This document shows, in pieces, positions 3,001 through 62,965 of a DNA stretch of 64,000 nt. Position 1 is the first letter of the stretch; each line of letters begins with the position of its first letter. The stretch is from Polychytrium aggregatum. Taxonomy: Eukaryota > Chytridiomycota > Chytridiomycetes > Polychytriales. The notes under the pieces are model-generated. The model was not told the origin of the DNA. It saw only the letters and a program-made list of their open reading frames with translations, and searched no databases. A program made the translations under genes and the position numbers. The stretch spans positions 62,001 to 126,000 of the forward strand of contig NW_026516248.1 in assembly GCF_025602895.1 (NCBI RefSeq), in the 5' to 3' direction.

Positions 3001-5401
3001 GTCGGAGCACGTTACGATAACAAGCTTTTCATCCAAGCTTCTGCTTTTGGCATCGATCCGCAAGCCCAAGCGCTTGATTATCAATGGAAGCGACGAAAAA
3101 GAGTACCCCTGGCTCGTCAAGGTATCTGGCAATGCGTTGCGTCGTGTGACTGTGGCTCGGCTTCCAGTGCGGTCGATTTTTGGAACATAAACAGGCGTGC
3201 CGCACGACTCACCTCCATGCCCGGCGCAACAGGCGGGTGAGGATCTGCGTCTCGACCAGCGAATCCAGCAAATCTTTGGAATCATGAACGGCATCCTCAG
3301 GAAAAACCAATACTGTCTGAGCCAAAATATGTCGATCCACACGTACAAGGTACAATCGATGCGCCGCCAGCCCGACTGCTCCGTCTTCCATCCTGCTTTG
3401 TGCTTCTGATCGTGGATGGGCCCAAAGGCTTGCCTATCGTGCAGCGATAGCCTGATGTCTCACACACTCGATTCATCGCCCACTCTCTTCATTGGAATCG
3501 CCGCCTGTGGTGGCCATCAATACTGCTGCATCGCCTCGGCTCTCTAGGTTGTGCCCATGAACACTGGCCTCGGCATCATCGAGTGGGTCAACAACACCAA
3601 GCCACTCAGACAATGCATGGCCGACATTCCTGGATTCAACGACGAGCTCAAGAGGGCCAAGGACATATTCTTTGATTCTCTCAAAAAAATGGGCGGCAGC
3701 TACGAAATCGCCGGTGCGAATCGCTCTGGAACAGAGATCCGATGGTGTCAATGCCACCGGCTTGCATGGCTTGGCTGCGGCTGCTCAATATTGGCCCGCT
3801 ATCGCAGCATGGCATCTCACCAACCGCTCTCTCTGCACACGCAGCCTACACCACGGCATATAGACGGGTCAAGGCCGATGGATACACCAGAAACATGCAG
3901 CAGCTCTGGGGATGCTTCTCCAAGCCCTACCTCAAGGAGAGCCTTCTGCTCTTGTGCAAGTCGCCCGAGGCCTTTTTTGCGCTGCGCTCGCGCTTCAGCC
4001 AGACGCTGGCGGCCTTCAATATTTGCTCGTACTTGCTCGGTACGTCAGTGCAGACGATGCTCACCGATTCGAGTGGCAGTGCACTTTTCTGCGTCTCATG
4101 CTGCGTGTACAAGACTAACCGGAACGATTCGACACTTTGATCCACAGGCATCGGGGATCGCCACTTGGAAAACTTTTTGATCAGCCAAAAGAGGTGGGCA
4201 GCAACGCTCCTGTGTATCTGTCCTCGTTGTGGCTCTGTGACTCTGCGTGCTTGCAGTCCTCAAGCGCCTAACCCATGGTTGGTCCCACAGCGGCGAGGTG
4301 ATCGGAATCGACTTTGGCTTGGCATTCGGGTAAGACCCTCAGCACTGGCGGACCAAATGAGATGGATTGCGCTGGCCCGGTGGCCCACGCAACCTGTGGA
4401 TGTGGATGTGGATGTGGATGATGTTGTCAACTGATTCGATTCGATCCGTCACGGCTGGCTTGGGATTGCGGCAGATCCGGTGCAGAGAACCTGCCGATTC
4501 CCGAGATTGTCCCCTTCCGGGTTACCAAGCAGATGGAGCGAATGATGGAGCCCCTCGGTGTCAATGTCCTGCTCAAGATCCCGATGGTTCACGCAATGAC
4601 CGGTTAGTGGCCCACGCAAGCCCCTGTTCCACTCTCGTTGCTTCGTCCCCATTGTTGTCTGGCGACGTTGACAGGCTATGGGTTCTTTTCGCAGCAATGC
4701 AAGATGAAAAGCGAGCATTGGTGACGGCCCTGGATATCTTTGCCAAGGAGCCCATCGTCGAGTGGCGCAAATACGCCAAGGCTCAAATCGAAAAGCAAAA
4801 GCGAAGTATGGCCTGCCCTCGAGCTGCATTCTTCCAGAACTCGGCGACCCCCGAGGACTGGGAACTCGCCAAGACGCAATGCCGATACGAACTTTGGACG
4901 GCCTCGCTGTCGAGAGGCCATATCTGTCTGCGGCTGCCATCTAATGCCCTTGTCCCGTCCGTGATACTGCAATCAACCTACAGGAGGAAAATACTCCAGT
5001 GCGGAGCCAGATCTATCGTCGGAAGACTCCATCGCGGCAGTGCCGGCCTGGTATCCAAAGCAGAAGATCCAGACGGCCATCCGCAAACTGAACCGCGATC
5101 CCCCGCTCGGTAGGCCCAAGTCTCGGCCGCACTGTCCTGCACACGTTTCGAGCGTGTTCGATGCCGGCGAGACTAACTTTGTCCATTGACAGACATTTTG
5201 CTTGAAGAGCTGGCCCGCGGCCATCGAGAGAAGGACTGGTTCAAGGCCCTGTGTCAAGGACTGCTGGAAACACAGGAGCAGCCCGCCAGCAGCCGACCAG
5301 AGGCCCCCACGGTCGAAGCGCAGGTGTCCAAGCTCCTGTCGATGGCGACCGACCCCAACATTCTCGGCAGGGCTTACTTTGGCTGGACATCGTTCCTTTG
5401 A
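1..5401 (+). CDS. DNA-PKcs-like PI3K-related protein kinase, C-terminal part (5' end outside window)
   Basis: Serine/threonine kinase of the PIKK family, most like DNA-dependent protein kinase catalytic subunit, which acts with Ku in non-homologous end joining in the nucleus. The gene enters from the left edge as many short exons (for example about 151-297, 387-485, 566-667, 732-1017, 1105-1347) carrying helical FAT-type sequence. The kinase region shows GGEDLRLDQRIQQIFGIMNG near 3234-3290, then PMNTGLGIIEWVNNTKPL near 3555. The catalytic loop GIGDRHLENFLIS is on an exon near 4148-4193, and the metal-binding loop EVIGIDFGLAFG on the next, near 4292-4331. The last exon (about 5193-5401) ends in an FATC tail, ATDPNILGRAYFGWTSFL, which matches the DNA-PKcs tail pattern better than those of ATM, ATR or TOR. 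All catalytic residues are present, so it looks active. The N-terminal HEAT region lies outside the window. Exact exon limits are approximate; family assignment is strong. Confidence 0.9.
4394..4421. repeat. Short GTGGAT microsatellite in an intron
   Basis: About four consecutive GTGGAT units lie in the intron that follows the DFG-encoding exon of the DNA-PKcs-like gene. No function is evident. Confidence 0.6.
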
Positions 5402-16541: not shown

Positions 16542-16774
16542 GGAGTTGGTGAGTATTGTTGCAGCGAGCTGGGGGGGGGGAAGAGGAGCCGATTGATGCA
16601 GATCAGGGATCGGCGAGATCGATGAGATCGACAAACCGCGCCACGTCGAGCCAAATATCGAGTTGGCATTCTTGATCATCGGATGAATGTTCTGCCTTCA
16701 CCTTGCTTCGCCGCCTTCTCCCTCATCAGCCCTGCCTGTCTGTCGCTCTGCCCGCTGAGCGCTCCCCACATATC

Positions 16775-18301
16775 ATGGATCTCAATGCCACCACTCCCTC
16801 TGCCATCGATGCGGCGCTGCTGTCGCCTTCCAGCCACAGCCCTGACATCTTCACCATCGTGTGCTGCAACGACGGCTTCCAGCTCCAGCTCGATTATGCC
16901 ACCATCCAGACCCTGCTCCAAGTCTGCAAACGGGCCAGACCCCTGCTGAGCGCCAAAGTGAATCGCTTCCGCAGATGGTGCCAGGATGCAGGACTGTGTC
17001 ATCCAGACGGGTCGATGAGGATCGTCCTCACACCGAGCGACCAGATCGCCATCTCGCCTCATTGCGATGAGCAAGTTGCAGCAGACCGATCCTGGCTCAT
17101 TGACCAAGCCGACCAAGGCAACGCTGCCGCCTCATTCTTCGTGGCCCGGATCCTCCAAGTCGAGCTCGCTGACCAGAAATCTACAGGCTGGCGAGAGCAG
17201 GGAGACAAGCAGCGGCAAATCTTCCAATATCTGGAAGCAGCAGCCAAAGCAAACCATCCGATGGCACAGTTCCACTTGGCTGAGTGTTATCTTCATGGCC
17301 ATGGAATCAGCCAGGACCACACCAAGGCTGTCGAGTTGTATCGTGACCTCGCAGAGCGTGGACTTGCACAGGCTCAAGTTGGCCTCGGTCGATGTTTCGA
17401 GAACGGCGAAGGAGTTGACCAAGACTACGAAACTGCCATCAAGTGGTACACCAAGGCTGCGAACCAAGGCAGCGACAGCGGTCGACTCCATATCGTGTTC
17501 CTCCGTGGCTGGTTCTCGCTCGTTGGCCACGGTGTTGGACAGAGCGACGCCGATGCGCTCAAATGCTGGCAGGAGGTCAGCACACAGTCCACCGACATAG
17601 CCATCAAGTCGATTGCCACGCACATGGTTGGGTGGATGCACTACCTCGGCCGGGGCGTCGAGCGAGACCAGCAGAAGGGAGTCAAAATCATCCGTGAGAA
17701 CGAGTCGGACGAGTTTCCGCTCGGGGAAGGCGATTGCCTGGCCGGGGGATTTGCCGAGCCTTGGATCTACTCGGACTCGCTCGCTGTACGCAAGTTCTTC
17801 AAGTTGTGCCAGTTTGGATCGGAGCGGGACTGGCTGTGCAAGCACCTTATGGCCATTTGCCTGATATATGGACTAGGAACCGAGTTGGAACCAGAAAACG
17901 CAGCGAACATTTTCGAGCAGCTCGCCAACGATGGCCACAGCGACAGCCAGTTCTCGATTGGAGAGTGCTACTACGATGGCAACGGGCGATCGAGGGACAA
18001 AGCGAAAGCAATCCGATGGCACGAAAGCTCCGCCAACCAGGGTAATTCATATGGCCAGTGGATGGTTGGGTGGTGCCGTTCCTTTGAACACCAAGTGCCC
18101 GAGGGCAGCACCATATCAGCCGAGTGGTATCGCAAGTCGGCCGAGCAAGGCAATCGATATGGACAGTTCTATTTTGGCGAGTGTCTCCAATTTGGTTACG
18201 GTATCGACCGAGACATCGACGCCGCCATCGTCTGGTATCGCAAGTCTGCAGAGCAGGAATTTCAACTTGCCATCGACATCCTTGAGAGCCTTGGAAATTA
18301 G
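16775..18301 (+). CDS. Sel1-repeat protein, subfamily A copy 1
   Basis: Single-exon protein of 508 residues starting MDLNATTPSAIDAAL. An upstream in-frame extension to 16703 exists, but similarity to the paralogue at 42023 also extends into that leader, so the start is a judgement. The first ~130 residues form a module shared with the three related genes in this window: PDIFTIVCC, FQLQLDYATIQTLLQVCKRA, VNRFRRWCQDAGL and TPSDQIAI. The rest is Sel1-type (TPR-like) helical repeats of about 36 residues, for example GRCFENGEGVDQDYETAIKW and WYRKSAEQGNRYGQFYFGEC. Sel1 arrays usually act as scaffolds for protein complexes; the partner here is unknown. No signal peptide or membrane helix is seen. It converges with its relative at 18790-20388 and shares near-identical DNA blocks with it and with 42023-43537. 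Confidence 0.85.
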   Translation: MDLNATTPSAIDAALLSPSSHSPDIFTIVCCNDGFQLQLDYATIQTLLQVCKRARPLLSAKVNRFRRWCQDAGLCHPDGSMRIVLTPSDQIAISPHCDEQVAADRSWLIDQADQGNAAASFFVARILQVELADQKSTGWREQGDKQRQIFQYLEAAAKANHPMAQFHLAECYLHGHGISQDHTKAVELYRDLAERGLAQAQVGLGRCFENGEGVDQDYETAIKWYTKAANQGSDSGRLHIVFLRGWFSLVGHGVGQSDADALKCWQEVSTQSTDIAIKSIATHMVGWMHYLGRGVERDQQKGVKIIRENESDEFPLGEGDCLAGGFAEPWIYSDSLAVRKFFKLCQFGSERDWLCKHLMAICLIYGLGTELEPENAANIFEQLANDGHSDSQFSIGECYYDGNGRSRDKAKAIRWHESSANQGNSYGQWMVGWCRSFEHQVPEGSTISAEWYRKSAEQGNRYGQFYFGECLQFGYGIDRDIDAAIVWYRKSAEQEFQLAIDILESLGN

Positions 18302-18789: not shown

Positions 18790-20388
18790 TCAGCGGTGTT
18801 GCGCAAACGACTTGCGAGACCAGTATGTCGAGAGCTCCCAGTCCCTGGCAACGCCGTAGCCATTCCCATAGCAGAACCCGAGGTCATACTGGGCCTGCCG
18901 ATGACCCTGCTCGGCCGCCTTGCGGTACCACTCGACCGCCTTGGCGAGATCTCTGGACACTCCACCATGATGATAGTAGCTGTGCCCAACCATCCACTGT
19001 CCGTACGGGTTGCCTTGATCGGCTGACTTGCTAAACCACTCGAACGCCTTCGAGTAGTTCCTTGGCTTTCCCCAGGAGCCGTAGTGGCACTGTCCCAGCC
19101 AGTACTGGCTGTCGCTATGGTTCTCGTTGGCAAGCTGCTCAAAGATTCTTGCGGCCTTGTCGTGGTTCTGCGTCACTCCAAAGCTGTGGATCAGGCAAAC
19201 GGCCATGAGATGCCGGCACAGCCAGTCCTGCTTGGACCCCAGTCGACACAGCTTGAAGAACTTGCGTGCGGCAAGCGAGTCGCAATACTGGAAATCTTCT
19301 TCGGTCCGACAGTCGAGCTCCCCGAGCAGAAACTCGTCCGACTCGTTCTCACGGATGATTTTGACTCCCTTCTGCTGGTCTCGCTCGACGCCCCGGCCGA
19401 GGTAGTGCATCCACCCAACCATGTGCGTGGCAATCGACTTGATGGCTATGTCGGTGGACTGTGTGCTGACCTCCTGCCAGCATTTGAGCGCATCGGCGTC
19501 GCTCTGTCCAACACCGTGGCCAACGAGCGAGAACCAGCCACGGAGGAACACGATATGGAGTCGACCGCTGTCGCTGCCTTGGCTGACAGCCTTGGTATAC
19601 CACTCGATCGCTGTGGTGTAGCCTTGGAAGCTCTTGACGTTCTCCAAGCATCGGCCGAGGCCGACCTGGGCTGGTGCATATCCGCGATCGGCGAGACTGC
19701 GATACAACTCGGCGGCCTTGGATGTGTCTCGCTTGGTTCCGTATCCGTTGTGGCAGCATTCGGCCATGTAGAATCGCGCCACCGGATGGCCGGCATCGGC
19801 TGCCTTCTTTACGTAGTAAAATGCGAGTCTGCGCCGCGAGTCGTGCCTGGTGTCGCTCGCGGATCCAGTGTCGTCGGACGCATCGTCGTCATCGGCATCA
19901 TCATCATCATCGTCGTCGTCGTCTTCGTCTTCGTCATCGTCATCGTCCGAAGAATGATGTGTGTCGTCGTTGTCTTCTGCCCTCGTCTTGATTTCAGACT
20001 GGAGGATCCGACCCAGGAGATACGAAGCAGAACAGCGACCCTTGTCGGCCAGGGCGACGAGCCAGGATCGGTCGGCTCCGGCTGGGTCGTCGCAGTGCAG
20101 CGAGATGGCGATCCGGTCGCTGGGTGTGAGGCCGATTCGCAGCTGCCCGTCTGGACGACACAGCCCTGCTCCCTGGCACCAGTGGTCGAAGCGAGACAGC
20201 CTGGAGCTCAGGAGGAGCCGAGCCCGTTTGCACACGAGAAGCAGCGCCGGGATTGTGGCATCGTCGAGAGCAAGCTGGAAGTGGTCGTTGAAGGCCACAA
20301 TGGTGAAGATGTCTGGAAACAGGAGGACTGGCTCTGCGGCATCGGGTGAGGCATGGGCGCTGACAAGGGTGGCTGGGGTGGCTGCCAT
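18790..20388 (-). CDS. Sel1-repeat protein with poly-Asp tract, subfamily A copy 2
   Basis: Single-exon protein of 532 residues. The start chosen is MAATPATLVSAHAS; the frame stays open upstream through a 16-bp tandem repeat that looks like leader rather than protein. The N-terminal module PDIFTIVAFNDHFQLALDDA, LLLVCKRARLLLSSRLSRF and TPSDRIAI matches the other three genes. It is followed by an acidic tract of mostly Asp (codons at about 19883-19950), absent from the paralogues. About ten Sel1 repeats follow, such as HGGVSRDLAKAVEWYRKAAE, ending at FAQHR. A block of about 250 bp in the middle (19334-19585) is identical on the opposite strand to 17465-17716 in copy 1, while flanking repeats are well diverged, which suggests gene conversion. 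Function is unknown beyond a presumed scaffold role. Confidence 0.85.
   Translation of the reverse strand: MAATPATLVSAHASPDAAEPVLLFPDIFTIVAFNDHFQLALDDATIPALLLVCKRARLLLSSRLSRFDHWCQGAGLCRPDGQLRIGLTPSDRIAISLHCDDPAGADRSWLVALADKGRCSASYLLGRILQSEIKTRAEDNDDTHHSSDDDDDEDEDDDDDDDDDADDDDASDDTGSASDTRHDSRRRLAFYYVKKAADAGHPVARFYMAECCHNGYGTKRDTSKAAELYRSLADRGYAPAQVGLGRCLENVKSFQGYTTAIEWYTKAVSQGSDSGRLHIVFLRGWFSLVGHGVGQSDADALKCWQEVSTQSTDIAIKSIATHMVGWMHYLGRGVERDQQKGVKIIRENESDEFLLGELDCRTEEDFQYCDSLAARKFFKLCRLGSKQDWLCRHLMAVCLIHSFGVTQNHDKAARIFEQLANENHSDSQYWLGQCHYGSWGKPRNYSKAFEWFSKSADQGNPYGQWMVGHSYYHHGGVSRDLAKAVEWYRKAAEQGHRQAQYDLGFCYGNGYGVARDWELSTYWSRKSFAQHR
19883..19950. repeat. Trinucleotide tract encoding poly-Asp
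   Basis: Interrupted CATCGT/CATCAT trinucleotides encode a run of Asp and Glu within the minus-strand Sel1 gene. Confidence 0.8.
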
Positions 20389-20399
20389 GGCGTGCGATC

Positions 20400-20515
20400 G
20401 GATGCGGATGGTGTCGGATGCGGATGGTGTCGGATGCGGATGGTGTTGGATGCGGATGGTGTTGGATGCGGATGGTGTTGGATGCGGATGGTGTTGGATG
20501 CGGATGGTGTTGGAT
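20400..20515. repeat. 16-bp tandem repeat, about seven copies
   Basis: The unit GATGCGGATGGTGTTG repeats about seven times, with C or T at one position. It lies directly upstream of the chosen start of the minus-strand Sel1 gene, in its leader or promoter. Confidence 0.9.
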
Positions 20516-20792
20516 GGGTGAATGGGCAGGAGAAAGAGGGGAAGCAGGGTGGCCCAGCCAAAGTCACAAACATTCGACGGCCCAGACCCGCAATCGAATC
20601 CGCCATGCCGCCCAATCACGTGCTCGGCCATCCCGCCCGGGTCCGCCGCAGCCAGCCACAAGCCGGCCCTCCCGCGGCCGCTTTGCACTATCAATTTTTT
20701 CCACCCGACGACGCCGTCCACCGCCCGAGCGATAGCAGCCGGCAAGAGAAACCAGCCAGCAGACACCCTCTCCCGGAGAAGAGACTACACCG

Positions 20793-22886: not shown

Positions 22887-25604
22887 ATGGAGGCTGCACC
22901 GACGAGAGAGCAAATCAGGCAAAAGATCCTGGAGAAAAAAGGACAATACACCATCCGCGATTTCGACGGCTATGCGGTCAAGGTCCACCGAGACACCAGC
23001 CAGGTTCGGCCCTTTCCCGATCTTGCCCTTGCCAGCAGCAGCAGCAGCAGCAGCAGCAGAGCCCGCACGGCCAGCCTTCGGCTCGGCTTCCTCAGCCAAA
23101 GAATCAGCGGCCGGCCGAGTGGATTTGTCTACCCTCGGCTAACCTTGTCGCCAAATGTCGGATTCGTCGCGGCCACTTTTGGCCGGCTCAGAAACTCTCG
23201 ATTACCATCTGGGACCATCTCGAGCCCGAGGCCGTCTACGTCGGCACCTTTGAAGAGTCGCTGATCGCAGAAGCCTATGCCGAACTCACGTCCGAGGCCG
23301 GCATTTTGCGCATCGAGGAGGGCAAGGTATGTCCCAACCGCTTCTGGCCTCTCACATTATCTATGGAGGCCGGGGTCGAGCCTGTGCGTCCGTGCTTTTG
23401 CCCATGACCGCTTGGGTTTTCCGCACTGTTCTGGCTTTGTGTCGACAACTGTTCCAAGTATCCTTGGTATCTGGAGCTGCGATTATCGGCATAGCTGGAT
23501 GCATTGCGGACTACCGATGGGGCTTCGGCTCCCCTCCCCTTGCTGTTGGAAAGCAGACCAGGGTCCGATTCCTTTCCGTGCCGTTTCCTATACTGTCACT
23601 CCCATCGCTCCCGTCAACTTACAGAATTATACACCTGCCTCCCTTGGTCTGTGGTCTAGATCGACACCAACCTCGTGCCACACCAACTGGACATCCGTCG
23701 CCGATCTGCCCCGACCCTCTCGTACATTCTCAAGCGCGAGCTCATTCCGGCCTCGATCGTTCTGCGGAACGAAATCGACCGGCTGCGTTGGGTTGGGCCG
23801 CAAGGCGCGGGCGTGGCGAAATCCATGGACGAAGCTCTGAAGCGGCTTTCGGTCGATCCAGACAACCTGGAGCAAGGTGAGAGATAGCTGGTCAATCGAG
23901 CCTTGACCGGATAGCAGGACTCCATCGTACCAATGACGGTCGATGTGCGATGTGCGATGTGCGATGTCGGCGTGAGTGTGGTGCTGGTGGCGACAAGAAG
24001 GGTCTTGGTTGATACACGGCGTTGAATGCAGTTGGCATCCTAAACAGCCTGTCCATTGGATATCCCGGCACCACCCACACCATCCACACCATCCACACCA
24101 TCCACACCATCCACACCATCCACACCATCTACATCATCCACACCATCTACACCATCCACACTTTGCCCGCCACGCTGACTATCCGCATCATCCGCCGTGT
24201 ATATCATGAACGCCATGTCGCCGCTGCATTGCTCCAGTTTCCCCGGACTACATCCATGGCCGTCTCGAATTCATGAGCGAACACTACGCCAAGGCCGCCG
24301 ACTATTTCCGCAAGGCTGCATACAAGGACCATGGTCTCTCGCAGAATGCTCTTGGTCTCTGCCATGAAATCGGAGGCGACCCTGTCGGCGCGGCACGCTG
24401 GTTCGAGAAGGCGACTGAATCCGGATGCTTCGAGGGCGCCACCAACCTGGGGCGCTGCTACCTGGAAGGCATCGGCGTCGAGCAGGACTACACCAAGGCC
24501 GTGGAGCAGTTCAGCCTCGGGGCCGAGCACGATGACATGGAGGCCCTCAACTATCTCGGGCTATGCTACCAGCGCGGCCACGGCGTCGAGGTCGACTGCG
24601 AAAAGGCCGTCGACTACTATGAGCGAGCGGCCGAGATGGGCCACGCCGATGCCCAGAACAACCTCGGCCAGTGCTTTGAACACGGCTCGGGCACAGACCA
24701 GGACGAGGTCATGGCCTTTGCCCTCTACCAGAAAGCCACCAAGCAGAAGCACAAGGGCGCCCGCAAGAATCTGGCCGTCTGCTATCACCGCGGCATCGGC
24801 GCCCAGGCCGACAAGAACGCAGCCATCTGTCTCTACCAGGAGATTGTGGACCACGGCGACGCCGACATCGAAGTGCACTACAATCTCGGAACGCTCTACT
24901 ACGGCGCCCTCGAGTACGACGAGGCCGTGCGGTCGTTCCGACGGGCTGCCACCAACGGGCACATCATGGCGCAAAAGTACCTGGCCGACTGCTTCCGCTT
25001 CGCCCAGGGCGTCGTCGCCGACACGACGGCAGCGGTGCGTTGGTATCAGCGTGCTGCCGACCAGGGCTGTGTTGAGGCCCAGTGCTCGTTGGTGCAGTGC
25101 TACTTTGACGGAGTCGGCGTTCCGCAAAACTACGCCCTGGGTATGGAGTGGTATCGCCGCACGCGAGCAGTCGCCCCCGACTTGGTTGCCCTGCAGTCGC
25201 TGCAGTCTACATACGGCCCGAAACTCAAGGAGCTCGGCGATGGATACTGCGAAGGCACGTTTTCGTTCGGCAAGAACGAGCCCAAGGCGGTCGAGTACTA
25301 CCAAATGGCATCGGAGCTTGGCTGTGCCGCGGCACAAAACAAGCTCGGGTACTGCTATGAGGTGGGGCTGGGCGGACTCGTTCCCAGTAACGAGCTGGCC
25401 TTGATCCACTACGAAAAGGCGGCTGCCCAGGGCCTGGCCCACGGCCAGTACAACCTCGGTGTCTGCTATGAGAAGGGCATCTTTGTGGACGTGGATCTGG
25501 ACATTGCTCTGGCATGGTACCAAAAGGCTGCAATCCAGAGCCACAAGCAAGCCCAGAAAGCGGTCGACCGTTTGTCCAAGAAGCGAGCAGACCCAGCCCC
25601 TTAA
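22887..25604 (+). CDS. Sel1-repeat protein, subfamily B copy 1
   Basis: Four exons: 22887-23003, 23192-23326, 23660-23876 and 24238-25604. The exon pattern repeats in the paralogue at 31761, which supports the joins. The N-terminus has three short conserved blocks: REQIRQKILEKKGQYTIRDF, then SITIWDHLEPEAVYVGTFEE, then RRSAPTLSYILKRELIPASI. I recognise no named domain in them. The last exon encodes about a dozen Sel1 repeats, beginning DYIHGRLEFMSEHYAKAADY and ending in a Lys-rich tail. Repeats contain the usual pattern, for example GVEVDCEKAVDYYERAAEMG and GQYNLGVCYEKG. There is no signal peptide, so it is probably a cytosolic scaffold. The intron before the last exon carries a 9-bp tandem repeat. 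Confidence 0.85.
23035..23060. repeat. AGC microsatellite in an intron
   Basis: About eight AGC units lie in the first intron of the subfamily B Sel1 gene. Confidence 0.7.
24068..24163. repeat. 9-bp tandem repeat in an intron
   Basis: The unit ACCATCCAC repeats about ten times, degenerate at its 3' end, in the intron just upstream of the last exon of the Sel1 gene. Confidence 0.85.
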
Positions 25605-31760: not shown

Positions 31761-34376
31761 ATGACCTCCCGCGATCAAATCCGCCAGCGCATCGTCTCCA
31801 AGAAGGGCGACTACAAGATCCGAGACTATGAGGGCTACTCCATCAAGGTCCACAGGGATGGCACTCCCGGCAGCTCCGTAAGCCGTCTCCGCCGCTAAAT
31901 CGTCTCGGCCGCATCCCACGCAGCGACAACCATCGCACCATTACACCATTGCACATCGCCATGGACATGGCCGCGATGCATATTCGCATCGCTCGCGGCA
32001 AATCGATTGGGCCAATGACCCAAATGCTGGTCGCTTGTACCGGCTGAGTGGACGGCCCCTGCGTCGGCACCAGACTATCGCTCGTGCGTTGTCGCTGACT
32101 GTCTCCCGTGCCCAACGCCGCTCCCATCCACAGAAACTCTCGCTGACTGCCTGGGACCAACTCGAGCCCGAAGCTGTCTTCACAGGCACCTTTGAAGAAT
32201 CCAATCTGGACGAGAGCTTTGCCGAATTCCTCAAGGACACCGGTATTCTCAGTTTGGATGAAAGCGTGGTATGCACACAGCATGTGGAGCTATCGAGCTT
32301 GGGTCTCGACGGTCTCAATCCAGCGCGAGCGATTTGGCGAGTGCATCCAGGGAGTGTGCCAGGTGCGAGGCATACCTGTACACCGTATCGCCATCTCGAC
32401 AGCGTCGGTCACGGCCTCTCCAAGTTCCTGTGTCCATCTTACCAATGCCCGACATCCCCACCCAACATCAGATCGACAAGAGCCTCGTCGTTCACGAAAT
32501 TACCCTCCTCCGCCGCTCAGCTCCGACCGTGGCCTACATCCTGAAGCGGGAGCTGATTCCTGCCTCGATCGTGCTCAGAAACGAGATGGACCGCCTTCGC
32601 TTCGTGGGCGCACCCAAGAGTAAGGCTCCCTCCTCTCCTTTGGTTCGGGCTTGGCCCGGCTTTTGCGCGACTCACCGCCACTTCACTCAACCGTACCGCC
32701 CGAGCTCGCCTCGATCTAATCCGCCACCGCCGCTACGACCGTCTCGTTGCTGCAATTCCCAGATCTGCCAAAGCCACAGCGTGAGTCGACCCTTGACGAG
32801 GCGTTCAAGAAGATTAATATCGATCCTGAGTCGACCGAGCAATGTAAGAGACACTCCACCAGCCGTCATCCTCCCCCCCCCACCATTCGCCGTGAGTCGG
32901 TCGATTGTGTCAGAAGCATTCCTACCCATTCAGCCTCGCCGGTCATCGTCCCTCGTGGTCCCCGTCTTTGTCCCGTCCGCTCTAACCTCCCTGCCGTACC
33001 TGTCGTGCTCGCTGCCAGTCGTTCCCGAGTACATCTATGGTAAAATCGAGTTTATCTCGCAGAACTATGCCAAGGCTGCAGACTTTTTCCGGCGCGCTGC
33101 CTACAAGGGCCACGCCCTTTCTCAGAACTCGCTTGGTCTCTGCCATGAGATGGGCGGAGACTTTGAGGGCGCTGTTCGCTGGTTCCAAGAGTCGGCCGAT
33201 CTCGGGTGCGCCGACGGCGAAAACAACCTCGGACGCTGCTATCTGCAGGGCATCGGTCTTGAGAAGGATTTCAAGAAGGCCTTCGAGCTGTTCCTGCACG
33301 CGGGCGAGCAAGATGATATGGAGGCCCTCAACAACCTGGGTCTGTGCTACCAATACGGCACCGGTGTCCAAGAAGACATCGAGAAGGCTGTCGACTACTA
33401 CGAGCGTGCCGCCGAGAAGGGCCATCCCGGCGCTCAAAACAACCTTGGTCTTTGCTTCGAACACGGTTACGGCGTCGACCAGGACCCCGTCATGGCTGTT
33501 GCCCTGTACCAGAAGGCGGCTCGGCAGAACGACTTTGATGCGCAAAAGAACCTCGCCTCCTGCTACCACCGCGGCGTCGGCGTCACCATGAACCCGGCAG
33601 AAGCCATCCGTCTCTACAAGGGCCTCGTCGATGGCGGCAAGGCCGACACCACCGTCTTTTTCGAGCTCGGCACGCTGTACTATTCACAGATGGAGTACGA
33701 CGACTCGGTCCGTGCTTTCCGCCAGGCCGCCCACCAGGGCCATCCTGGAGCCCAGAAGGCCCTCGGCGATTGCTATCACTATGGCCACGGCCTCCGACCG
33801 GATGTCACCGCCGCGGTGCGATGGTACCAGCGCGCTGCCGACCAGGGTCATGCCGACGCCCAGAACTCGCTGGCCTACTGCTACTTTGAGGGCCGCGGCG
33901 TGTCCCAAAACTACGAAATGGCTGTGCACTGGTACCAGGCTGCTGCCGATCAAGGCCACAGTGCCGCCATCAAGTCGCTGGGCTCAGCCATGAAGAGCCT
34001 CGGCGACGAGTTCTTTGACGGCACCGACACACTCTGTCGTGACGAAAAGGAGGCCGCAAAGTGGTACATTCGTGCCTCCGAGCTGGGCTCAGCCGCCGCC
34101 CAGAACAAGCTCGGATACTGCTACGAGATGGGCATCGGTGTCGGCGGCGAGGATCACCAGAAGGCCATCAAGTGGTACGAGAAAGCCGCGGAGCAAGGTC
34201 TGGCCCATGGCCAGTACAACCTCGGCGTCTGCTACGAGAAGGGCCGTGGCGTCGGCATCGATCCCTACATTGCCCTGGCCTGGTACCAGAAGGCTGCCGT
34301 CCAGAGCCACAAGCAGGCCCAATCCGCCGTTGAGCGGCTGACATCGAAGCGACGACAGAGCACCATTTGGGGATGA
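31761..34376 (+). CDS. Sel1-repeat protein, subfamily B copy 2
   Basis: Paralogue of the gene at 22887-25604 with the same order of parts. Exons: 31761-31877, 32134-32268, 32472-about 32619, about 32771-32844 and 33019-34376. The start is MTSRDQIRQRIVSKKGDYKI. The conserved N-terminal blocks are DQLEPEAVFTGTFEE and RRSAPTVAYILKRELIPASI. An extra small exon encodes KPQRESTLDEAFKKINIDPE. The Sel1 array starts VPEYIYGKIEFISQNYAKAA and runs for about a dozen repeats. The tail is TSKRRQSTIWG. It lacks the intron minisatellite of its sister. Protein similarity is high across the repeats, but DNA differs throughout, unlike subfamily A, so this is an older duplication. Role: presumed cytosolic scaffold, partner unknown. 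Confidence 0.86.
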
Positions 34377-34998
34377 AAGGGTGGTCGTGACGGCCCTTCC
34401 CATGGCTACGCCAACTGTACATTCACAACTTCAACAGTAGTATATCTCTGATCTTGGCTATTCCTCTCTCTCCCATGCGCTCTTTTGTTTGTCATATCAT
34501 CTGCAGCGTTTCCACGGCTGCCTCCTTGGCGATCCTCCTCCCAGCGCCTCTGGCTTGATATTTTTTTTCTTTCCTTTCCTTTCTTCGTATCTCCTTTCCC
34601 ATTGTACTCTTTTTGATGTCGACCACCCAATCCCTTCCCACTCGGGACACCTTGCAGGCCTACCTTGGATCACAGCGTGCGTGGCTCCCCCCAGGAATAC
34701 AACCTCTCTCGGGTGTCCAGTTGTTGTCTCGCCTTCCTCCACCCTCCCTTCGTGGCGTCCCAAGCAGTGCCAGCATCACGCCAATCGCTGGCTGCTGCAT
34801 GTAGAATTACTCTTGTGGAATCCGGCACAGCCTCTTGCACATCGGCTGCGTCGTCCCGCTTCATTCCAGAATACATGCAATGTATCCGATTGCTCCAGAA
34901 CCCCGGGAGTGGCTGGAGCTCGAGGATACTGAAGTGCTTCATTCTGCAGCGTCCACCATCACAACCACCACCACCACCACCACAACACCGCCAACATC

Positions 34999-35033
<35 letters not shown>

Positions 35034-35091
35034 AAACAACAACAATAACTACTACAACATCGCCGTTACTCGTTCAAATGTAACGACACGA
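34377..35091. other. Convergent intergenic region, no gene seen
   Basis: About 700 bp between the Sel1 stop and the Osh3-like stop. It holds a pyrimidine-rich 3' flank (34555-34610) and a simple repeat at its right end. No gene is supported. Confidence 0.5.
34965..35056. repeat. ACC/AAC trinucleotide microsatellite
   Basis: ACC units run into AAC and AAAC units for about 90 bp in a convergent intergenic region. Confidence 0.85.
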
Positions 35092-41480: not shown

Positions 41481-41553
41481 GGGGAATTAGCTCAGATGGT
41501 AGAGCGCTCGCTTAGCATGCGAGAGGCACGGGGATCGATACCCCGATTCTCCA
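41481..41553 (+). tRNA. tRNA-Ala (AGC)
   Basis: A 73-nt cloverleaf. The acceptor GGGGAAT pairs with ATTCTCC, the D-arm contains AGCTCAGATGG, the anticodon loop reads CTTAGCATG with AGC as anticodon, and the T-loop is GATCGATAC. No intron. The next tRNA starts 7 nt downstream. Confidence 0.95.
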
Positions 41554-41560
41554 CTCACCC

Positions 41561-41633
41561 GCCCGGCTAGCTCAATCGGTAGAGCGTGAGACTCTTAATC
41601 TCAAGGTTGTGGGTTCGACCCCCACGTTGGGCG
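41561..41633 (+). tRNA. tRNA-Lys (CTT)
   Basis: A 73-nt cloverleaf. The acceptor GCCCGGC pairs with GTTGGGC using two G-U pairs, the anticodon loop is ACTCTTAAT with CTT, and the T-loop is GTTCGACCC. No intron. Neither flank shows a T-run terminator. Confidence 0.95.
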
Positions 41634-41637
41634 ATCA

Positions 41638-41711
41638 GCTCCTATGGCGCAATTGGCTAGCGCGTTCGGCTGTTAACCGGAAGGTTGGTGGTTCGAGCCC
41701 ACCTAGGAGCG
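41638..41711 (+). tRNA. tRNA-Asn (GTT)
   Basis: A 74-nt cloverleaf. The acceptor GCTCCTA pairs with TAGGAGC, the anticodon loop contains CTGTTAA with GTT, and the T-loop is GTTCGAGCC. It begins 4 nt after tRNA-Lys. Confidence 0.95.
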
Positions 41712-41870: not shown

Positions 41871-42022
41871 GCAGGGGTGGCGAGTCAGCATCGCCGCCGT
41901 GGGAATCGGATCGAATCACAAGCCAACTTGTTTTCATGACCCGTTTCGGCCTGCTTCGCCGCCTTCTCCCTCATCAGCCCTGCCTGTCTGTCGCTCTGCC
42001 CGCTGAACCCTCCCCATATATC

Positions 42023-43537
42023 ATGGATCTCAATGCCACCACTCCCTCTGCCATCGATGCGGCGCTGCTGTCGCCTTCCAGCCACAGCCCTGACATCTTC
42101 ACCATCGTGTGCTGCAGCGACGGCTTCCAGCTCCAGCTCGATTATGCCACCATCCAGACCCTGCTCCAAGTCTGCAAACGGGCCAGACCCCTGCTGAGCG
42201 CCAAAGTGAATCGCTTCCGCAGATGGTGCCAGGATGCAGGACTGTGTCATCCAGACGGGTCGATGAGGATCGTCCTCACACCGAGCGACCAGATCGCCAT
42301 CTCGCCTCATTGCGATGAGCAAGTTGCAGCAGACCGATCCTGGCTCATTGACCAAGCCGACCAAGGCAACGCTGCCGCCTCATTCTTCGTGGCCCGGATC
42401 CTCCAAGTCGATCTCGCTGACCGACAGTCCGTAACCGAGCCCCAAAGGTATGCCGCACGACAGCAGATTTTCCAATATCTGGAAGCATCAGCGAAAACGA
42501 ACCATCACGGGGCAGGATGCCACTTGGCCGAACATTATCGAAATGACTATGGATTCCATCGAGACTACGACAAAGCACTTGAATTGTATCGTGACCTCGC
42601 AGAGCGTGGACTTGCACAGGCTCAAGTTGGCCTCGGTCGATGTTTCGAGAACGGCGAAGGAGTTGACCAAGACTACGAAACTGCCATCAAGTGGTACACC
42701 AAGGCTGCGAACCAAGGAAACACCGACGGCAAACTCCGAGTCGAGTTCCTCCGTGGCTGGTTCTCGCTCGTCGGCCACGGTGCCGAGCAAAGCGACGCCG
42801 ATGCGCTCAAATGCTGGCAGGAGGTCAGCACACAGTCCTCTGATCCAGTCATCAAACCCATCGCCACGCACATGGTTGGGTGGATGCACTATCTCGGTCG
42901 TGGGACACCCCAAGACAAACAGAAAGGAGTCAAAATCATCCGTGAGAACGAGTCGGACGAGTTTCCGCTCGGTGAAGAGAGCACGTTCACAGGATATCCA
43001 GCCTCCTCCAAGTTACCCGCTGCCCGAAAGTTCCATCAGTTGTGCCAGTTTGGATCGGCACAGGACTGGCTGTGCAAGCATCTCAAAGCTCTGTGCTTGA
43101 TCCAAGGATTTGGAACGACCCAAAACAAGGATATGGCAGTGGAAATCTTCGAACAGCTCGCCAACGACGGCCACAGCGACAGCCAGTATTGGATTGGGGA
43201 GCACTACAGCCGTAGCTGGGAAGCATGCCGTGACCAGACCAAGGCCTTCAAGTGGTTCAGCGCATCTGCAGACCAGGGCAACTCGTATGGGGAGTTTAAG
43301 GTTGCAGAGTGCTACTATTATGGAACCGCAGTCGCCAGCGACGAGGACAAGGCGGTTGAGTGGTATCGCAAATCGGCCGAGCAAGGCAATCGAAAGGCGC
43401 AATATGAACTTGGCGATCTCTATCTGATGGGTATGAGTATTCCCAAGGACCGCAACGCTGCCGCCGAATGGTTCCTCAAATCCGCCGCGCAAAATTACAC
43501 ACCTGCCTTCTCCAGGATCGAATCCCTAGGCCTGTAA
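42023..43537 (+). CDS. Sel1-repeat protein, subfamily A copy 3
   Basis: Single-exon protein of 504 residues starting MDLNATTPSAIDAAL. Its first ~400 bp and the ~70 bp before the start are almost identical to copy 1 at 16775. The N-terminal module (PDIFTIVCCSDGFQLQLDYA, VCKRARPLLSAKVNRF) precedes about ten Sel1 repeats, for example GTAVASDEDKAVEWYRKSAE. After the first repeat the sequence switches relationship: 42588-42945 is nearly identical to the minus-strand gene at about 45143-44797 rather than to copy 1. The C-terminus is AFSRIESLGL. It begins about 300 bp after the tRNA cluster and converges on the kinase-Sel1 gene. Function is unknown; probably a scaffold. Confidence 0.85.
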   Translation: MDLNATTPSAIDAALLSPSSHSPDIFTIVCCSDGFQLQLDYATIQTLLQVCKRARPLLSAKVNRFRRWCQDAGLCHPDGSMRIVLTPSDQIAISPHCDEQVAADRSWLIDQADQGNAAASFFVARILQVDLADRQSVTEPQRYAARQQIFQYLEASAKTNHHGAGCHLAEHYRNDYGFHRDYDKALELYRDLAERGLAQAQVGLGRCFENGEGVDQDYETAIKWYTKAANQGNTDGKLRVEFLRGWFSLVGHGAEQSDADALKCWQEVSTQSSDPVIKPIATHMVGWMHYLGRGTPQDKQKGVKIIRENESDEFPLGEESTFTGYPASSKLPAARKFHQLCQFGSAQDWLCKHLKALCLIQGFGTTQNKDMAVEIFEQLANDGHSDSQYWIGEHYSRSWEACRDQTKAFKWFSASADQGNSYGEFKVAECYYYGTAVASDEDKAVEWYRKSAEQGNRKAQYELGDLYLMGMSIPKDRNAAAEWFLKSAAQNYTPAFSRIESLGL

Positions 43538-44180
43538 TGCCCACCACGAATATCCAGCGGGTGGCGCCTATGAGACCTCCTGCCCAATATCAGATACAAA
43601 ATATAGTCAATCCAGAAAGAAACTGGACAGTGTTCGATTCCTCTGGCATCAAAGCCCCAGTGGCCAGGCGGTGCGATTGTTTCCCGTCCTGGGAGACAAT
43701 CTCTTTGATTTAGTTGATTTCGGGAAACGTGGCCTTGAACATGCCAGTCGATCTCCCGTGGCGACGATCGACTAGTGGCGACGATCGACTAGCGTACCAA
43801 GATCATGTTCCTGGCTGGATTGATGTCTCGATGTGGGAACGCGGTGCACCCAGCTGATACTGCACTGACACACCCTTGCATCGACCTTCCCATTACCGCT
43901 TGTTGCTCATCAAGGTGCTCGCTCTTCCACATCAGCGATATTTACCACCTGCGCAACGTTCACCTCGTGGCCGTTGTGGATTGTGACTTGACCCGTTCTC
44001 TATTCATTGGTCTGGCCGTATTGGGCTCTGATCCATGCGTGCCCCGCCAGGTCGGCCTGAATAGTTTCAGAGGGGACGCCACAGCACCACAGTATGAAGT
44101 CGACAAAATGCTGTTGTATTCAGAATCAAATACAGCATGATTTTGCTACTTGCTCGTATGCTCAGCGCTTAGCCAAGGGA
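43538..44180. other. Convergent intergenic region with a 17-bp duplication
   Basis: About 640 bp between two convergent Sel1 genes. GTGGCGACGATCGACTA is duplicated in tandem at 43759-43792. No gene is supported, and no MITE equivalent to the one in the 18.3 kb spacer is seen. Confidence 0.55.
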
Positions 44181-46724
44181 TCAGGGGCACTCCTTGAGGA
44201 ACCACAGACTGTCGATTGCACCTTCGTTGCCTTGGTCTGCCGCCTTCTGATACCAAAAAAGAGCCGACTCGAGGTCCTCGGCGACACCATAGCCCTTACT
44301 GTGGCAGAAACCGAGCCAATACTGCCCACGCCGATTGCCTTGCTCGGCAGATTTGCGATACCACTCAACCGCCCTGGCGTCGTCACCAACAACACCACAT
44401 TCGTTATAGTAACATAGGCCAACCCCCAGCTGCCCGTACGAGTTGTTCAAGTTGGCCGATCTGCTGTACCACTCGAATGCCTTCGAGTTATCATCCAATA
44501 CTCCCCAGCCATTATAGTAACATTCTGCGAGCCAGAACTGGCTGTCGCTGTGGCCGTCGTTGGCGAGTTGTTCGAAGATTTCCACTGCCATATCCTTGTT
44601 TTGGGTCGTTCCAAATCCTTGGATCAAGCACAGAGCTTTGAGATGCTTGCACAGCCAGTCCTGTGCCGATCCAAACTGACACAGTTCGAAGAATCGAAGG
44701 GCAGCGGATGGCTGTCTGAAGGTCGGCTGCGAAGGAACTCCACAGGCCAGGCATTCATCTTCACCAAAATTGAACTCATCCGACCTGTTGTCTCGTATAA
44801 TTTTGACTCCTTTCTGTTTGTCTTGGGGTGTCCCACGGCCGAGATAGTGCATCCACCCAACCATGTGCGTGGCGATGGGTTTGATGACTGGATCAGAGGA
44901 CTGTGTGCTGACCTCCTGCCAGCATTTGAGCGCATCGGCGTCGCTTTGCTCGGCACCGTGGCCGACGAGCGAGAACCAGCCACGGAGGAACTCGACTCGG
45001 AGTTTGCCGTCGGTGTTTCCTTGGTTCGCAGCCTTGGTGTACCACTTGATGGCAGTTTCGTAGTCTTGGTCAACTCCTTCGCCGTTCTCGAAACATCGAC
45101 CGAGGCCAACTTGAGCCTGTGCAAGTCCACGCTCTGCGAGGTCACGATACAATTGAAGTGCTTTTGAAATATCGGGGCGGACTATGAGGCCATTGCGGTA
45201 GGAGTCAGCCAGGTGCAACTGTGCCATCCAATGCCCAGTGTCGGCAGCCTTTTCAAAGTGGCCGAGAATTCGCTTATATTTGATGCTTCGCTCTTTCCAA
45301 CTCGCGGACTGTCGGCTTTGGAGATCCATTTGAAGAATCCTGGCCAAGATGTACGAAGCGACTGCGCTCCCTCGGTCCGCCAAGGTGGACAACCACGAAC
45401 GGTCCTCTGCGTCTTGGCCACTGTAGTGATGCAAGAGGGCGAGCAAATCGTTTGTCGAGATAAGGTCAGGAAGTGGCTTTTCTGGGGAATGCAGCCCGTT
45501 CTGCTTGCACCAGTGTCGAAGTCGGTTGACTCTGGAGTTCAGGAGCGGTCGGGCTCGCTTGCACACGAGAAGCAGGGTCTTGATGTCAGCTAGACAGAGT
45601 GCGAGCTGGAAGCTTTCGTTGAAGCACACGATGCTGAAGAGGTCTGGTCCGAGCTGGATGGCCGACGGCCGTATTGGATCCAAGATCGATAAACTGGTGT
45701 TGATCCCGACGATTTCGTCCGACACAATCAGTGGAGCATTGATGCGACTGGTGGAGCCCCCGTCCAAAGTGAATGGATGAACTCTATCCATGAGGACCAG
45801 TTTGGTTTTGTCGCTCTGGGCGGATGTGAGGAGTGCCGCTGACGTAGGATCCAAACCCGCCCTGCACTGGTCGAGAGCAGCAGCGATCTGTTCGAAAGTC
45901 GGTCGATCGGCAGGGGTTTGGGCCCAGCAGCGCTCGATGAGGGTCCAGATGTCATTGGGAATGCCGTCGATCTGCTGGGGTCTTTGGCCATGGTCGACTG
46001 TTTGCTCAATTGCTTGGTCTTGCAGCGCTTCTCCGTCGTCGGTGATCCACACGGGTTTGGCATCGTTGAGCACCTCGTACGTGGTAATGGCGAAGGCATA
46101 TACATCGGTCTTCATGGTGGTGTCGCCGAGTTCATCGTCGTCAAGCGTCTCGGGGGCGCCGTAGCTGCTGTTTCGGCTGCGGTCCGTCAAGGTGGATGTA
46201 TGTTTGATGCGGGACAGCCCAAAGTCGCTGACGACAGCATTGGCTCCACTGTCGAGCAGGACATTTGCAGCCTTGAGCCCGCCATGAACGACATTGTGAT
46301 CATGGAGATATGCTATCCCCGCGGCCACTTGGTGGAGTAGACGGAGCTTCTCCTCCAGTGGGACATTGTTGTTGGCAACATGATCAAGGAGGGTGCCGTT
46401 GGGCATGAACGGCGAGACCATGAAGGGAGGAATCGGATTGCCGTCGTCGTCTTGGTCGCAGGCACCGAGCAGCGACAGGATGTTAGGGTGACTGAGCTGC
46501 TTCCAGAGATCGATCCGATGGCGGTATTCATTGAGCTGGTCGATGTTGCAAGTGCCGAGGAGCTGCTTGATGGCGACCTTGGAGCCAAAGTATGTGCCGG
46601 TGAAGACCTCGCCAAGGCCACCGCGGCCGATGGGTTGGATGGAGCGGCCGGTGATATCGCTGGGCGAGATGAACCAGGACGGCCGCTCAGGCACGGATCG
46701 AGCGATGTCTTTGGTGGACGCCAT
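44181..46724 (-). CDS. Protein kinase-like domain fused to Sel1 repeats, subfamily A copy 4 (predicted pseudokinase)
   Basis: Single-exon protein of 847 residues, start MASTKDIARSVPERPSW; an in-frame Met at 46934 would add hydrophobic leader. Residues about 25-285 form a tyrosine-kinase-like (TKL) fold: glycine loop IGRGGLGEVFTGTYFG, ATP lysine in VAIKQLLG, catalytic-loop region VVHGGLKAANVLL, metal loop VSDFGLSRI, APE-like YGAPETLDDDE and a late RPTFEQI motif. The catalytic Asp of HRD/HGD is Gly here while other key residues remain, so phosphotransfer is doubtful. After a linker the shared module appears (GPDLFSIVCFNESFQLALCL, LLLVCKRARPLLNSRVNRLR). About ten Sel1 repeats then run to WFLKECP. 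It is the only kinase fusion among the four related genes and shares near-identical blocks with copy 3. Confidence 0.88.
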   Translation of the reverse strand: MASTKDIARSVPERPSWFISPSDITGRSIQPIGRGGLGEVFTGTYFGSKVAIKQLLGTCNIDQLNEYRHRIDLWKQLSHPNILSLLGACDQDDDGNPIPPFMVSPFMPNGTLLDHVANNNVPLEEKLRLLHQVAAGIAYLHDHNVVHGGLKAANVLLDSGANAVVSDFGLSRIKHTSTLTDRSRNSSYGAPETLDDDELGDTTMKTDVYAFAITTYEVLNDAKPVWITDDGEALQDQAIEQTVDHGQRPQQIDGIPNDIWTLIERCWAQTPADRPTFEQIAAALDQCRAGLDPTSAALLTSAQSDKTKLVLMDRVHPFTLDGGSTSRINAPLIVSDEIVGINTSLSILDPIRPSAIQLGPDLFSIVCFNESFQLALCLADIKTLLLVCKRARPLLNSRVNRLRHWCKQNGLHSPEKPLPDLISTNDLLALLHHYSGQDAEDRSWLSTLADRGSAVASYILARILQMDLQSRQSASWKERSIKYKRILGHFEKAADTGHWMAQLHLADSYRNGLIVRPDISKALQLYRDLAERGLAQAQVGLGRCFENGEGVDQDYETAIKWYTKAANQGNTDGKLRVEFLRGWFSLVGHGAEQSDADALKCWQEVSTQSSDPVIKPIATHMVGWMHYLGRGTPQDKQKGVKIIRDNRSDEFNFGEDECLACGVPSQPTFRQPSAALRFFELCQFGSAQDWLCKHLKALCLIQGFGTTQNKDMAVEIFEQLANDGHSDSQFWLAECYYNGWGVLDDNSKAFEWYSRSANLNNSYGQLGVGLCYYNECGVVGDDARAVEWYRKSAEQGNRRGQYWLGFCHSKGYGVAEDLESALFWYQKAADQGNEGAIDSLWFLKECP

Positions 46725-52502: not shown

Positions 52503-52857
52503 AAAAAACGGGACAATATCGCCGTTTCCATGAACATGTAGTATGTGCTGTGCTTGCGTCAAGCAAAGCCACAAGAAATAAAACAGATCACTTTGGCAGC
52601 CTCCGAGTGAAGACCACCGGTCGCCCTCCGGTCTCCACAATCGACCTGCACACTGGTCTCGGAGTGCCAGCGATGGATGATACTCTTGGACACACTGAAT
52701 ATGGAGGCAACCTTACGCAGGCTATGGATGAGGGCGTAGCATCGCAATGCGGCGGTGCGAAAGTCGGATGTGTGGCGAATGGTCATGGCCAGCGCGCGAT
52801 AACATTGGGTAACAAAATATTCGATGAATGGTCAAAATCCCGGGTGTCCCGTTTTTT
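52503..52857 (-). mobile_element. Tc1/mariner-like element remnant, copy B (355 bp), with transposase HTH fragment
   Basis: Bounded by a perfect 13-bp inverted repeat, AAAAAACGGGACA at 52503-52515 and TGTCCCGTTTTTT at 52845-52857. On the minus strand 52786-52559 encodes 75 residues, MTIRHTSDFRTAALRCYALI followed by RKVASIFSVSKSIIHRWH, which looks like the N-terminal helix-turn-helix of a Tc1/IS630-type transposase. No catalytic DDE region remains, so it cannot move by itself. An inverted terminal motif, ACGGGACACCCC, also follows immediately at 52874, as if a second element end abuts this one. The internal sequence AACAGATCACTTTGGCAGCC is shared with the element at 62724. Confidence 0.65.
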
Positions 52858-62723: not shown

Positions 62724-62965
62724 GAAATGGGCACCTGCCCACAACCCATTTGTCAGCGTAGTATGCGATGGCATGCGTCTCGCTATGCCATAAGAAATAG
62801 AACAGATCACTTTGGCAGCCTCCGAGTGAAGACCACCGGTCGCAGTGCAGCGATGCGGAAATCGAGGGTGCTGTGTTTGGCCATGATTGCAATGAGTGGG
62901 TGGGTGTGTGTATTCAGGTTCCAGAAAAATACCCTGTCATGGCTCAAAACGGGGTGTCCCATTTC
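62724..62965. mobile_element. Tc1/mariner-like MITE, copy C (242 bp)
   Basis: The right end GGTGTCCCATTTC at 62953-62965 pairs with a left end GAAATGGGCACC at 62724-62735 with one gap. The interior aligns with copy B: both carry AACAGATCACTTTGGCAGCC and GAGTGAAGACCACCGGTCGC. Copy C lacks about 110 bp of the transposase helix-turn-helix codons. Its right half also matches copy A at 18.5 kb. Confidence 0.6.

Follow-up and report, generated by a model that had tools for sequence, protein, structure and literature searches.

The stretch of DNA analysed here, referred to as the window, is 64,000 nt long and originates from Polychytrium aggregatum (assembly GCF_025602895.1, contig NW_026516248.1, positions 62,001-126,000 of the forward strand). 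It contains four Sel1-repeat genes sharing near-identical blocks, copies 1 to 4 (c1-c4), that form two convergent pairs, c1/c2 and c3/c4, located 25 kb apart (Table 1). Each copy is a single open frame. The Pfam family Sel1 (PF08238) is found in 4-5 stretches per protein with scores of 148-166 bits, the curated cut-off being 30.7, and the best match in the PDB is 4bwr_A (7.2e-65), chains of SEL1L and Hrd3 being listed too. The linker of c2 holds an acidic insert rich in Asp and Glu. In c4, whose frame stays open to 46934, a kinase-like domain precedes the Sel1 repeats. Its VAIK lysine and DFG motif are kept and its catalytic loop reads HGGLKAANVLL, with HGG in place of HRD. Deprived of the catalytic Asp, this domain is probably a pseudokinase, and the kinase fold devoid of the Asp of HRD would liken c4 to the MLKL-like pseudokinases. 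Nothing in Pfam scores above cut-off against residues 1-126 of c1 and c3 or against a stretch of 130 residues in c4. An F-box had been read in the N-terminal domain from a look at the sequence and was dropped, as nothing there exceeds the Pfam cut-off. No membrane or secretion domain was found by Pfam in c1-c4 or in the N-terminal parts of c1, c3 and c4, Pfam being the only tool applied (no signal-peptide or transmembrane predictor was run), nor was a NACHT or NB-ARC NTPase domain matched in c1-c4 at E<=0.01.

Table 1. Sel1-repeat genes of the window, their shared tracts and clustered allelic differences (positions in the window).
Feature	Position	Strand	Evidence or comment
c1, Sel1-repeat gene, 508 aa from ATG at 16775	16775-18301	+	Open frame; Pfam Sel1 5.6e-47
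c2, Sel1-repeat gene, convergent with c1	18790-20388	-	Open frame; Pfam Sel1 7.4e-47
c3, Sel1-repeat gene, 504 aa	42023-43537	+	Open frame; Pfam Sel1 3.2e-44
c4, kinase-like domain and Sel1 repeats, convergent with c3	44181-46724	-	Pfam Sel1 7.5e-50, PF07714 7.3e-48
Kinase-like domain of c4	45876-46637	-	Pfam domain limits
Three C-terminal Sel1 repeats of c3, aa 383-490	43169-43492	+	36-periodic hypervariable positions
c1=c3 tract, 458 bp	41952-42409 = 16704-17161	+	4 mismatches in this haplotype, 1 in haplotig C112
c3=c4 tract, 355 bp	42582-42936 = complement of 44800-45154	+	1 mismatch, at 42898
Second c3=c4 tract, 110 bp	43046-43155 = complement of 44569-44678	+	0 mismatches
c1/c3/c4 common tract	17344-17463 = 42592-42711 = complement of 45025-45144	+	c1-c3 0 mismatches/120
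c1=c2 tract, 248 bp	17470-17717 = complement of 19329-19576	+	0 mismatches
Three allelic differences in 11 bp, just before c3 start	42007-42017	+	C112 allele has the c1 letters at all three
Four allelic differences in 12 bp, variable linker of c4	45305-45316	-	Allele comparison

In a gene-oriented alignment of c1-c4, windows of 50 columns are mostly 45-85% identical and are interrupted by abrupt blocks at 96-100%. Identity switches between ~60% and 100% over a few bases, and beyond the tracts the flanks of the four genes are unrelated. The longest block, between c1 and c3, starts 71 bp upstream of the ATG and stops near residue 129; it corresponds to the near-identity over the first ~450 bp reported in the initial annotation. 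As also reported there, c3 then resembles c4, and the limits given for this block (42588-42945) are right to about 10 bp. Its single mismatch, at 42898, pairs with an allelic site at 44838 in c4. The second resemblance to c4 exists as well, although it ends ~35 bp before the proposed limit of 43190. The tract common to c1, c3 and c4 and the one joining c1 to c2 are additions to that first description. The notion that four genes in two inverted pairs 25 kb apart swap segments is borne out by the convergent layout, by these blocks and by runs of agreement far longer than those of shuffled sites. Over the 829 variable sites among c1-c4, the observed pairwise runs comprise 147, 65, 53, 53, 52, 34, 34 and 33 variable sites (three of the eight belonging to the 458-bp block and both runs of 34 being a single stretch seen in two pairs), compared with a longest run of 23 in 2,000 shuffles, which excludes chance. 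No significant run among c1-c4 falls in the C-terminal repeats of c3 (43169-43492). Sites that divide the genes two against two support 13|24 in 82 cases, 12|34 in 79 and 14|23 in 27. They are ordered along the gene: nearly all are 13|24 in the front and 12|34 in the middle, and the patterns are mixed between these regions and at the end.

The assembly searched comprises 64.7 Mb in 418 contigs. Chitin synthase gave 71 matches (best 3.9e-229; the weaker ones may be other glycosyltransferases) and the flagellar transport protein IFT57 was matched over several exons on two contigs (best 7.3e-33), which points to a flagellated fungus. Contig C112 matches the entire window at 99.67%, with 96 mismatches and 28 gap openings, so that, in this region at least, two haplotypes are represented in the assembly. 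Both haplotigs, the window and C112, present the same mosaic arrangement, each with its own single-nucleotide polymorphisms (SNPs) in and around it. Allelic differences in or beside c1-c4 are few and the window alleles nearly identical; block variation between the two haplotypes is accordingly slight there. At 42007, 42009, 42017 and 44838 the C112 alleles carry the letter of the paralog, the C112 allele of c4 having the c3 letter at the last of these sites (the C112 state of the c3-c4 block was taken from the allelic differences). One further difference in c4 lies at 46521.

Further copies, on which the initial annotation made its view depend, are numerous in the genome. A Sel1 search yielded at least 150 scored matches out of 2,772 candidates, and searches with the c3 DNA, the c3 protein and the c4 kinase yielded at least 40 of 306, 69 of 860 and 116 of 292, respectively; all these counts are lower bounds that include both haplotypes. 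Fifty-two loci outside the window (L018-L069), picked by similarity to c3, were retained as a sample representing a part of the family. A kinase-motif scan of these fetched loci matched only c4 and its copies. The best match contains a stop in 4/52 loci and none in 48/52, three others reaching the end of the fetched stretch. The ratio of nonsynonymous to synonymous substitution (dN/dS) is 0.36 over 35 close pairs, 0.20 for residues 180-320 and 0.50 for residues 380-500. From the overall ratio and the scarcity of internal stops, the genes look functional.

Mosaicism extends to these other members. The four early-stop loci were dropped and the remaining 48 aligned with c1-c4; in this 52-sequence alignment, 110/1,326 pairs share an identical run of at least 40 variable sites in spite of an overall agreement of 0.97 or less. 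After removal of 10 near-identical copies, and with pairs above 0.9 agreement skipped, a scan of 42 genes detected 128 tracts in 64/861 pairs, involving 34 of the 42 distinct genes (60 tracts after merging, with a median span of 108.5 columns). Third codon positions alone give 84 runs of at least 25, in 52 pairs, compared with 7-12 runs in five shuffles. Pairs lying on the same contig are enriched for third-position runs (9/29 versus 43/832, Fisher p 2e-5; 5/23 without the window genes), counts that are rough since sister haplotigs figure as different contigs and skipped pairs, including L029/L034, stay in the denominators. Within the sample, L051 matches L063 in its front and L061 in its rear. 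In segment trees built from c1-c4 and 24 other members (from the 48 remaining loci), the front segment unites c1 and c3 (support 100), and c3 joins c4 both in the middle one (99.5) and in segment 3 (90.5). Outside the tracts, the nearest rows in the free trees are mostly other family members, and in the last segment those nearest to each of c1-c4 are almost all such members. A single tree accommodating all segments did not emerge, although the formal topology tests on single segments were weak.

Recent exchange is most directly visible at another pair of loci, ~65 kb apart and in opposite orientation (C375:857689(-)/922745(+), with C396:60051(-)/125279(+) on the sister contig). The alleles L028 and L040 differ at 6/1140 and 0/1069 positions in the flanks and at 44/1900 in the gene. 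Of these 44 differences, 40 fall in a 179-bp stretch in which L028 has the sequence found in both alleles of the other locus, the donor match being 100%. One allelic tract in L028 extends into the variable repeats. A genome-wide search for a donor of the L040-specific tract gave none, the best other match reaching 83%. The comparison is explained more simply if L028 was converted by the other locus and L040 kept the older state than by an import into L040. Reciprocally, L020 matches the other locus at 100% over 1370-1443 and over 3029-3147 (the latter directly after the stop codon), where its own allele L023 differs; the 5' flanks of L020 and L023 show 1/1150 differences, compared with 46/1067 in the 3' flanks. 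Allele-specific tracts that fully match the other locus, found at each of the two loci, indicate that conversion is recent, still segregating and two-way. Blocks, whose variation the initial annotation proposed to look for among isolates, differ between alleles at this locus pair; in the window the alleles hardly differ.

The tracts fall mainly in the N-terminal part and the core, the C-terminal Sel1 repeats being mostly left untouched. Third-position tract cover is 4.2-9.5 over residues 1-320 versus 0.3-3.8 beyond, the mean third-position mismatch being similar along the gene (0.349, 0.388, 0.395). Only 8/55 midpoints of merged all-site tracts lie in residues 321-503, compared with 36% expected (p 0.0006), and 7/50 when the window genes are left out (p 0.0006). 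In 41 sequences, the entropy of the C-terminal repeats (residues 383-490) follows a 36-residue period, with a correlation between repeats of 0.61-0.80 and high values at phases 11, 14, 15 and 17. We take these phases to belong to the first helix of the Sel1/TPR fold, whose inner surface this helix lines.

Blocks that contradict a single history, the same pattern throughout the family sample and allele-specific tracts at another inverted pair are all observed. Their best explanation, to which we give a probability of about 0.8 with its functional part included, is that old paralogs have been partly overwritten by interlocus gene conversion. The copies c1-c4 would be four old paralogs of a very large Sel1-repeat protein family, in which interlocus (ectopic) gene conversion recently overwrote short stretches (about 110-460 bp); this would have happened within each convergent pair and also from one pair to the other, across 25 kb. 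The exchange would proceed by homologous repair copying from a paralog. The proteins are presumably soluble, a probable pseudokinase being fused in front in c4. More tentatively, the constant N-terminal and core part may form a signalling or scaffold module whose copies conversion keeps similar, and the hypervariable C-terminal repeats may bind diverse partners, as an intracellular recognition or signalling repertoire. That a uniform core would be combined with a variable end acting in recognition is suggested by sequence comparison, and the uneven placement of the blocks is a testable hint that it is the variable end of the protein that does the recognising. It is rather doubtful that this amounts to a constant-core, variable-sensor repertoire of very many intracellular Sel1 proteins in flagellated fungi, its core homogenised by conversion and its C-terminal Sel1 repeats remaining distinct and diversifying; if true, an intracellular recognition system would exist without NLRs, some members being fused to pseudokinases and some standing beside divergent kinase genes. 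Be that as it may, a Sel1 family is caught here during its rewriting by gene conversion, with alleles of one assembly differing by imported blocks, and single-gene trees of such families will mislead.

The distribution of tracts could also result from swapping of C-terminal ends near residue 320, leaving shared fronts, instead of homogenisation of the core. Tract cover falls abruptly at residue 320, as it would equally if C-terminal donors were mostly unsampled, and swapping from such donors would leave much the same picture as a spared C-terminal end. The composite L051 and the L028 tract that enters the variable repeats go in the same direction. The window genes, however, share separate internal tracts with different partners and no one common front, and the front match of c1 and c3 ends far ahead, near residue 129. 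C-terminal swapping is a serious alternative that we nevertheless hold to be unlikely.

Gene conversion between old paralogs is likewise preferred to a programmed diversification of surface or recognition genes that would use dedicated cassettes or a dedicated machinery, like antigenic variation. The initial annotation had compared the mosaics to diversity-generating families of this kind. Segment exchange, the many copies, mosaicism across the family sample, allelic blocks at one locus pair and the hypervariable positions of the Sel1 helix agree with the comparison, but Pfam gives no support to a surface role, 48/52 fetched members have no stop inside the match, the tracts avoid the variable repeats (8/55 midpoints), the alleles in the window hardly differ and positive selection is not demonstrated. 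This makes programmed diversification quite improbable.

Misjoined reads of near-identical paralogs could in principle produce false mosaics during assembly or phasing. Some contigs look palindromic: C223:1113592 (+)/1151222 (-) are inverted copies 100% identical over 2,911 bp and running past the fetched stretch, and the matches at C266:7407 (-)/17653 (+) mirror each other. These inverted copies are either true palindromes or fold-back assembly errors. In the window, however, the tracts are short (110-458 bp) and the mosaic is common to both haplotigs, each with its own SNPs; the flanks being unrelated, a misjoin would be needed twice at every block. An artefact is thus very improbable as the source of what we ascribe to conversion. 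Finally, the view that whole genes were recently duplicated as segments and then diverged fast, never exchanging sequence, is barely credible: both pairs are convergent alike and c1 and c3 share the 71 bp upstream of the ATG, but identity jumps from ~60% to 100% in a few bases, the matching partner changes from block to block, the flanks are unrelated and the runs in the family sample persist at third positions alone.

Several observations nonetheless count against interlocus conversion or restrict its reach. The mosaic is judged from assembled contigs, which leaves some room for assembly switching, and the functional part is drawn from sequence only. The approximately unbiased (AU) tests on single segments are weak: c3+c4 is not rejected in segment 1 (p 0.109), where c1+c2 is (p 0.014); c1+c3 is not rejected in segment 3 (p 0.191); and in segment 4, holding c1-c4 together is not rejected (p-AU 0.593) and has a likelihood slightly above that of the free tree. 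The corresponding values for c3+c4, c1+c3 and c1+c2 in the last segment are 0.281, 0.624 and 0.461, and identical rows made two AU tests inapplicable in segment 2. The cluster of allelic differences in c4 (45305-45316) has no donor, no word of at least 11 bases being shared with it in the 52 fetched loci. Eight presumed allelic pairs were examined, and in two of them, both of the C375/C396 locus pair, the clusters match a donor exactly over 38-110 bp each. Two others (L031/L036 and L038/L039) have no cluster of at least 4 differences. Clusters in L056/L060, L026/L062 and L032/L033 are without exact donor; L056/L060 overlap only partly, differences near alignment ends being unreliable, and the L032/L033 cluster sits upstream of the gene. 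In L053/L059, exact matches of 22 bp point to different paralogs. Positive selection was tested at the hypervariable phases and not demonstrated: dN/dS is 1.13 (0.95-1.35) with pooled synonymous sites and 0.50 (0.30-0.75) with the same codons, for phases chosen from the same data and for 18 disjoint pairs of which three are presumed allelic and several others share loci through alleles.

The four genes belong to the same repeat family as bacterial Sel1 proteins, SEL1L and Hrd3, from which they differ by the N-terminal regions of c1 and c3 and the 130-residue part of c4 that have no Pfam match. To our knowledge, family expansion and mosaicism are not features of SEL1L. A closer parallel is the HNWD family of NLR genes (het-d/het-e/het-r) of Podospora anserina, whose recognition repeats are exchanged and homogenised and for which positive selection was reported on four residues per repeat (PMC1805685; PMC2873952). 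Both are fungal intracellular multigene families with few hypervariable residues per repeat, exchange between members and high polymorphism. In contrast with HNWD as described there, the tracts occupy the N-terminal and core part of the Sel1 genes and largely spare the variable repeats, whose recognising role is here presumed; moreover no NACHT was found, the repeats are Sel1 rather than WD40 and positive selection is not demonstrated.

Very large families of kinase and Sel1-like genes, of unclear purpose and with a proposed role in environment perception, were described in Rhizophagus irregularis (PMC8647823), and MLKL-like proteins with Sel1 repeats in Glomeromycotina (PMC8778642). As in P. 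aggregatum, these are early-diverging fungi with many Sel1-like and kinase genes and some fusions of kinase-like domains to Sel1 repeats. They represent another fungal group, the present genome having flagellar genes, and conversion mosaics are not described in the available parts of either article. Mosaic formation of variant surface glycoprotein (VSG) genes in trypanosomes (PMC3708902), as far as the extract covers it, similarly involves a large gene family with segmental mosaics. In the sample, chosen by similarity to c3 and covering a part of the family, no silent pseudogene archive was seen (internal stops in 4/52), and there is no sign of a surface coat protein. Fungal immune receptors in general are treated in PMC10197012, in the consulted text of which the words 'Sel1' and 'chytrid' do not occur. 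Among the papers listed by searches of the open-access literature, none, as judged by title and the beginning of the abstract, describes conversion mosaics for Sel1 genes in a flagellated fungus, subscription journals lying mostly outside this survey.

Other features were noted in the assembly and the window. At seven places (C279, C365, C68/C363, C1, C97, C35, C66/C397), a c4-kinase match lies 0.2-3 kb from a divergent Sel1 match, e.g. C365 43695 (+) beside 41930-43474 (-), as if the two might be paired in expression; these are selected places with no background count. A short repeat occupies window positions 20400-20516, directly upstream of the c2 start, and three tRNA genes (Ala, Lys, Asn) stand in a row at 41481-41711, just upstream of c3. 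Two further Sel1 genes, of another subfamily and ~70-76% alike in parts, are found at 32271-34376 and 24273-25604. The difference in length between the open frames of the two haplotigs, 704 aa and 551 aa, may stem from a single-base allelic difference at 32873. Small indels and SNPs between alleles are densely clustered at 34965-35082. A 73-bp repeat (90%) occurs at 52552-52624 and 62771-62843, its second copy bearing an 18-bp allelic insertion.

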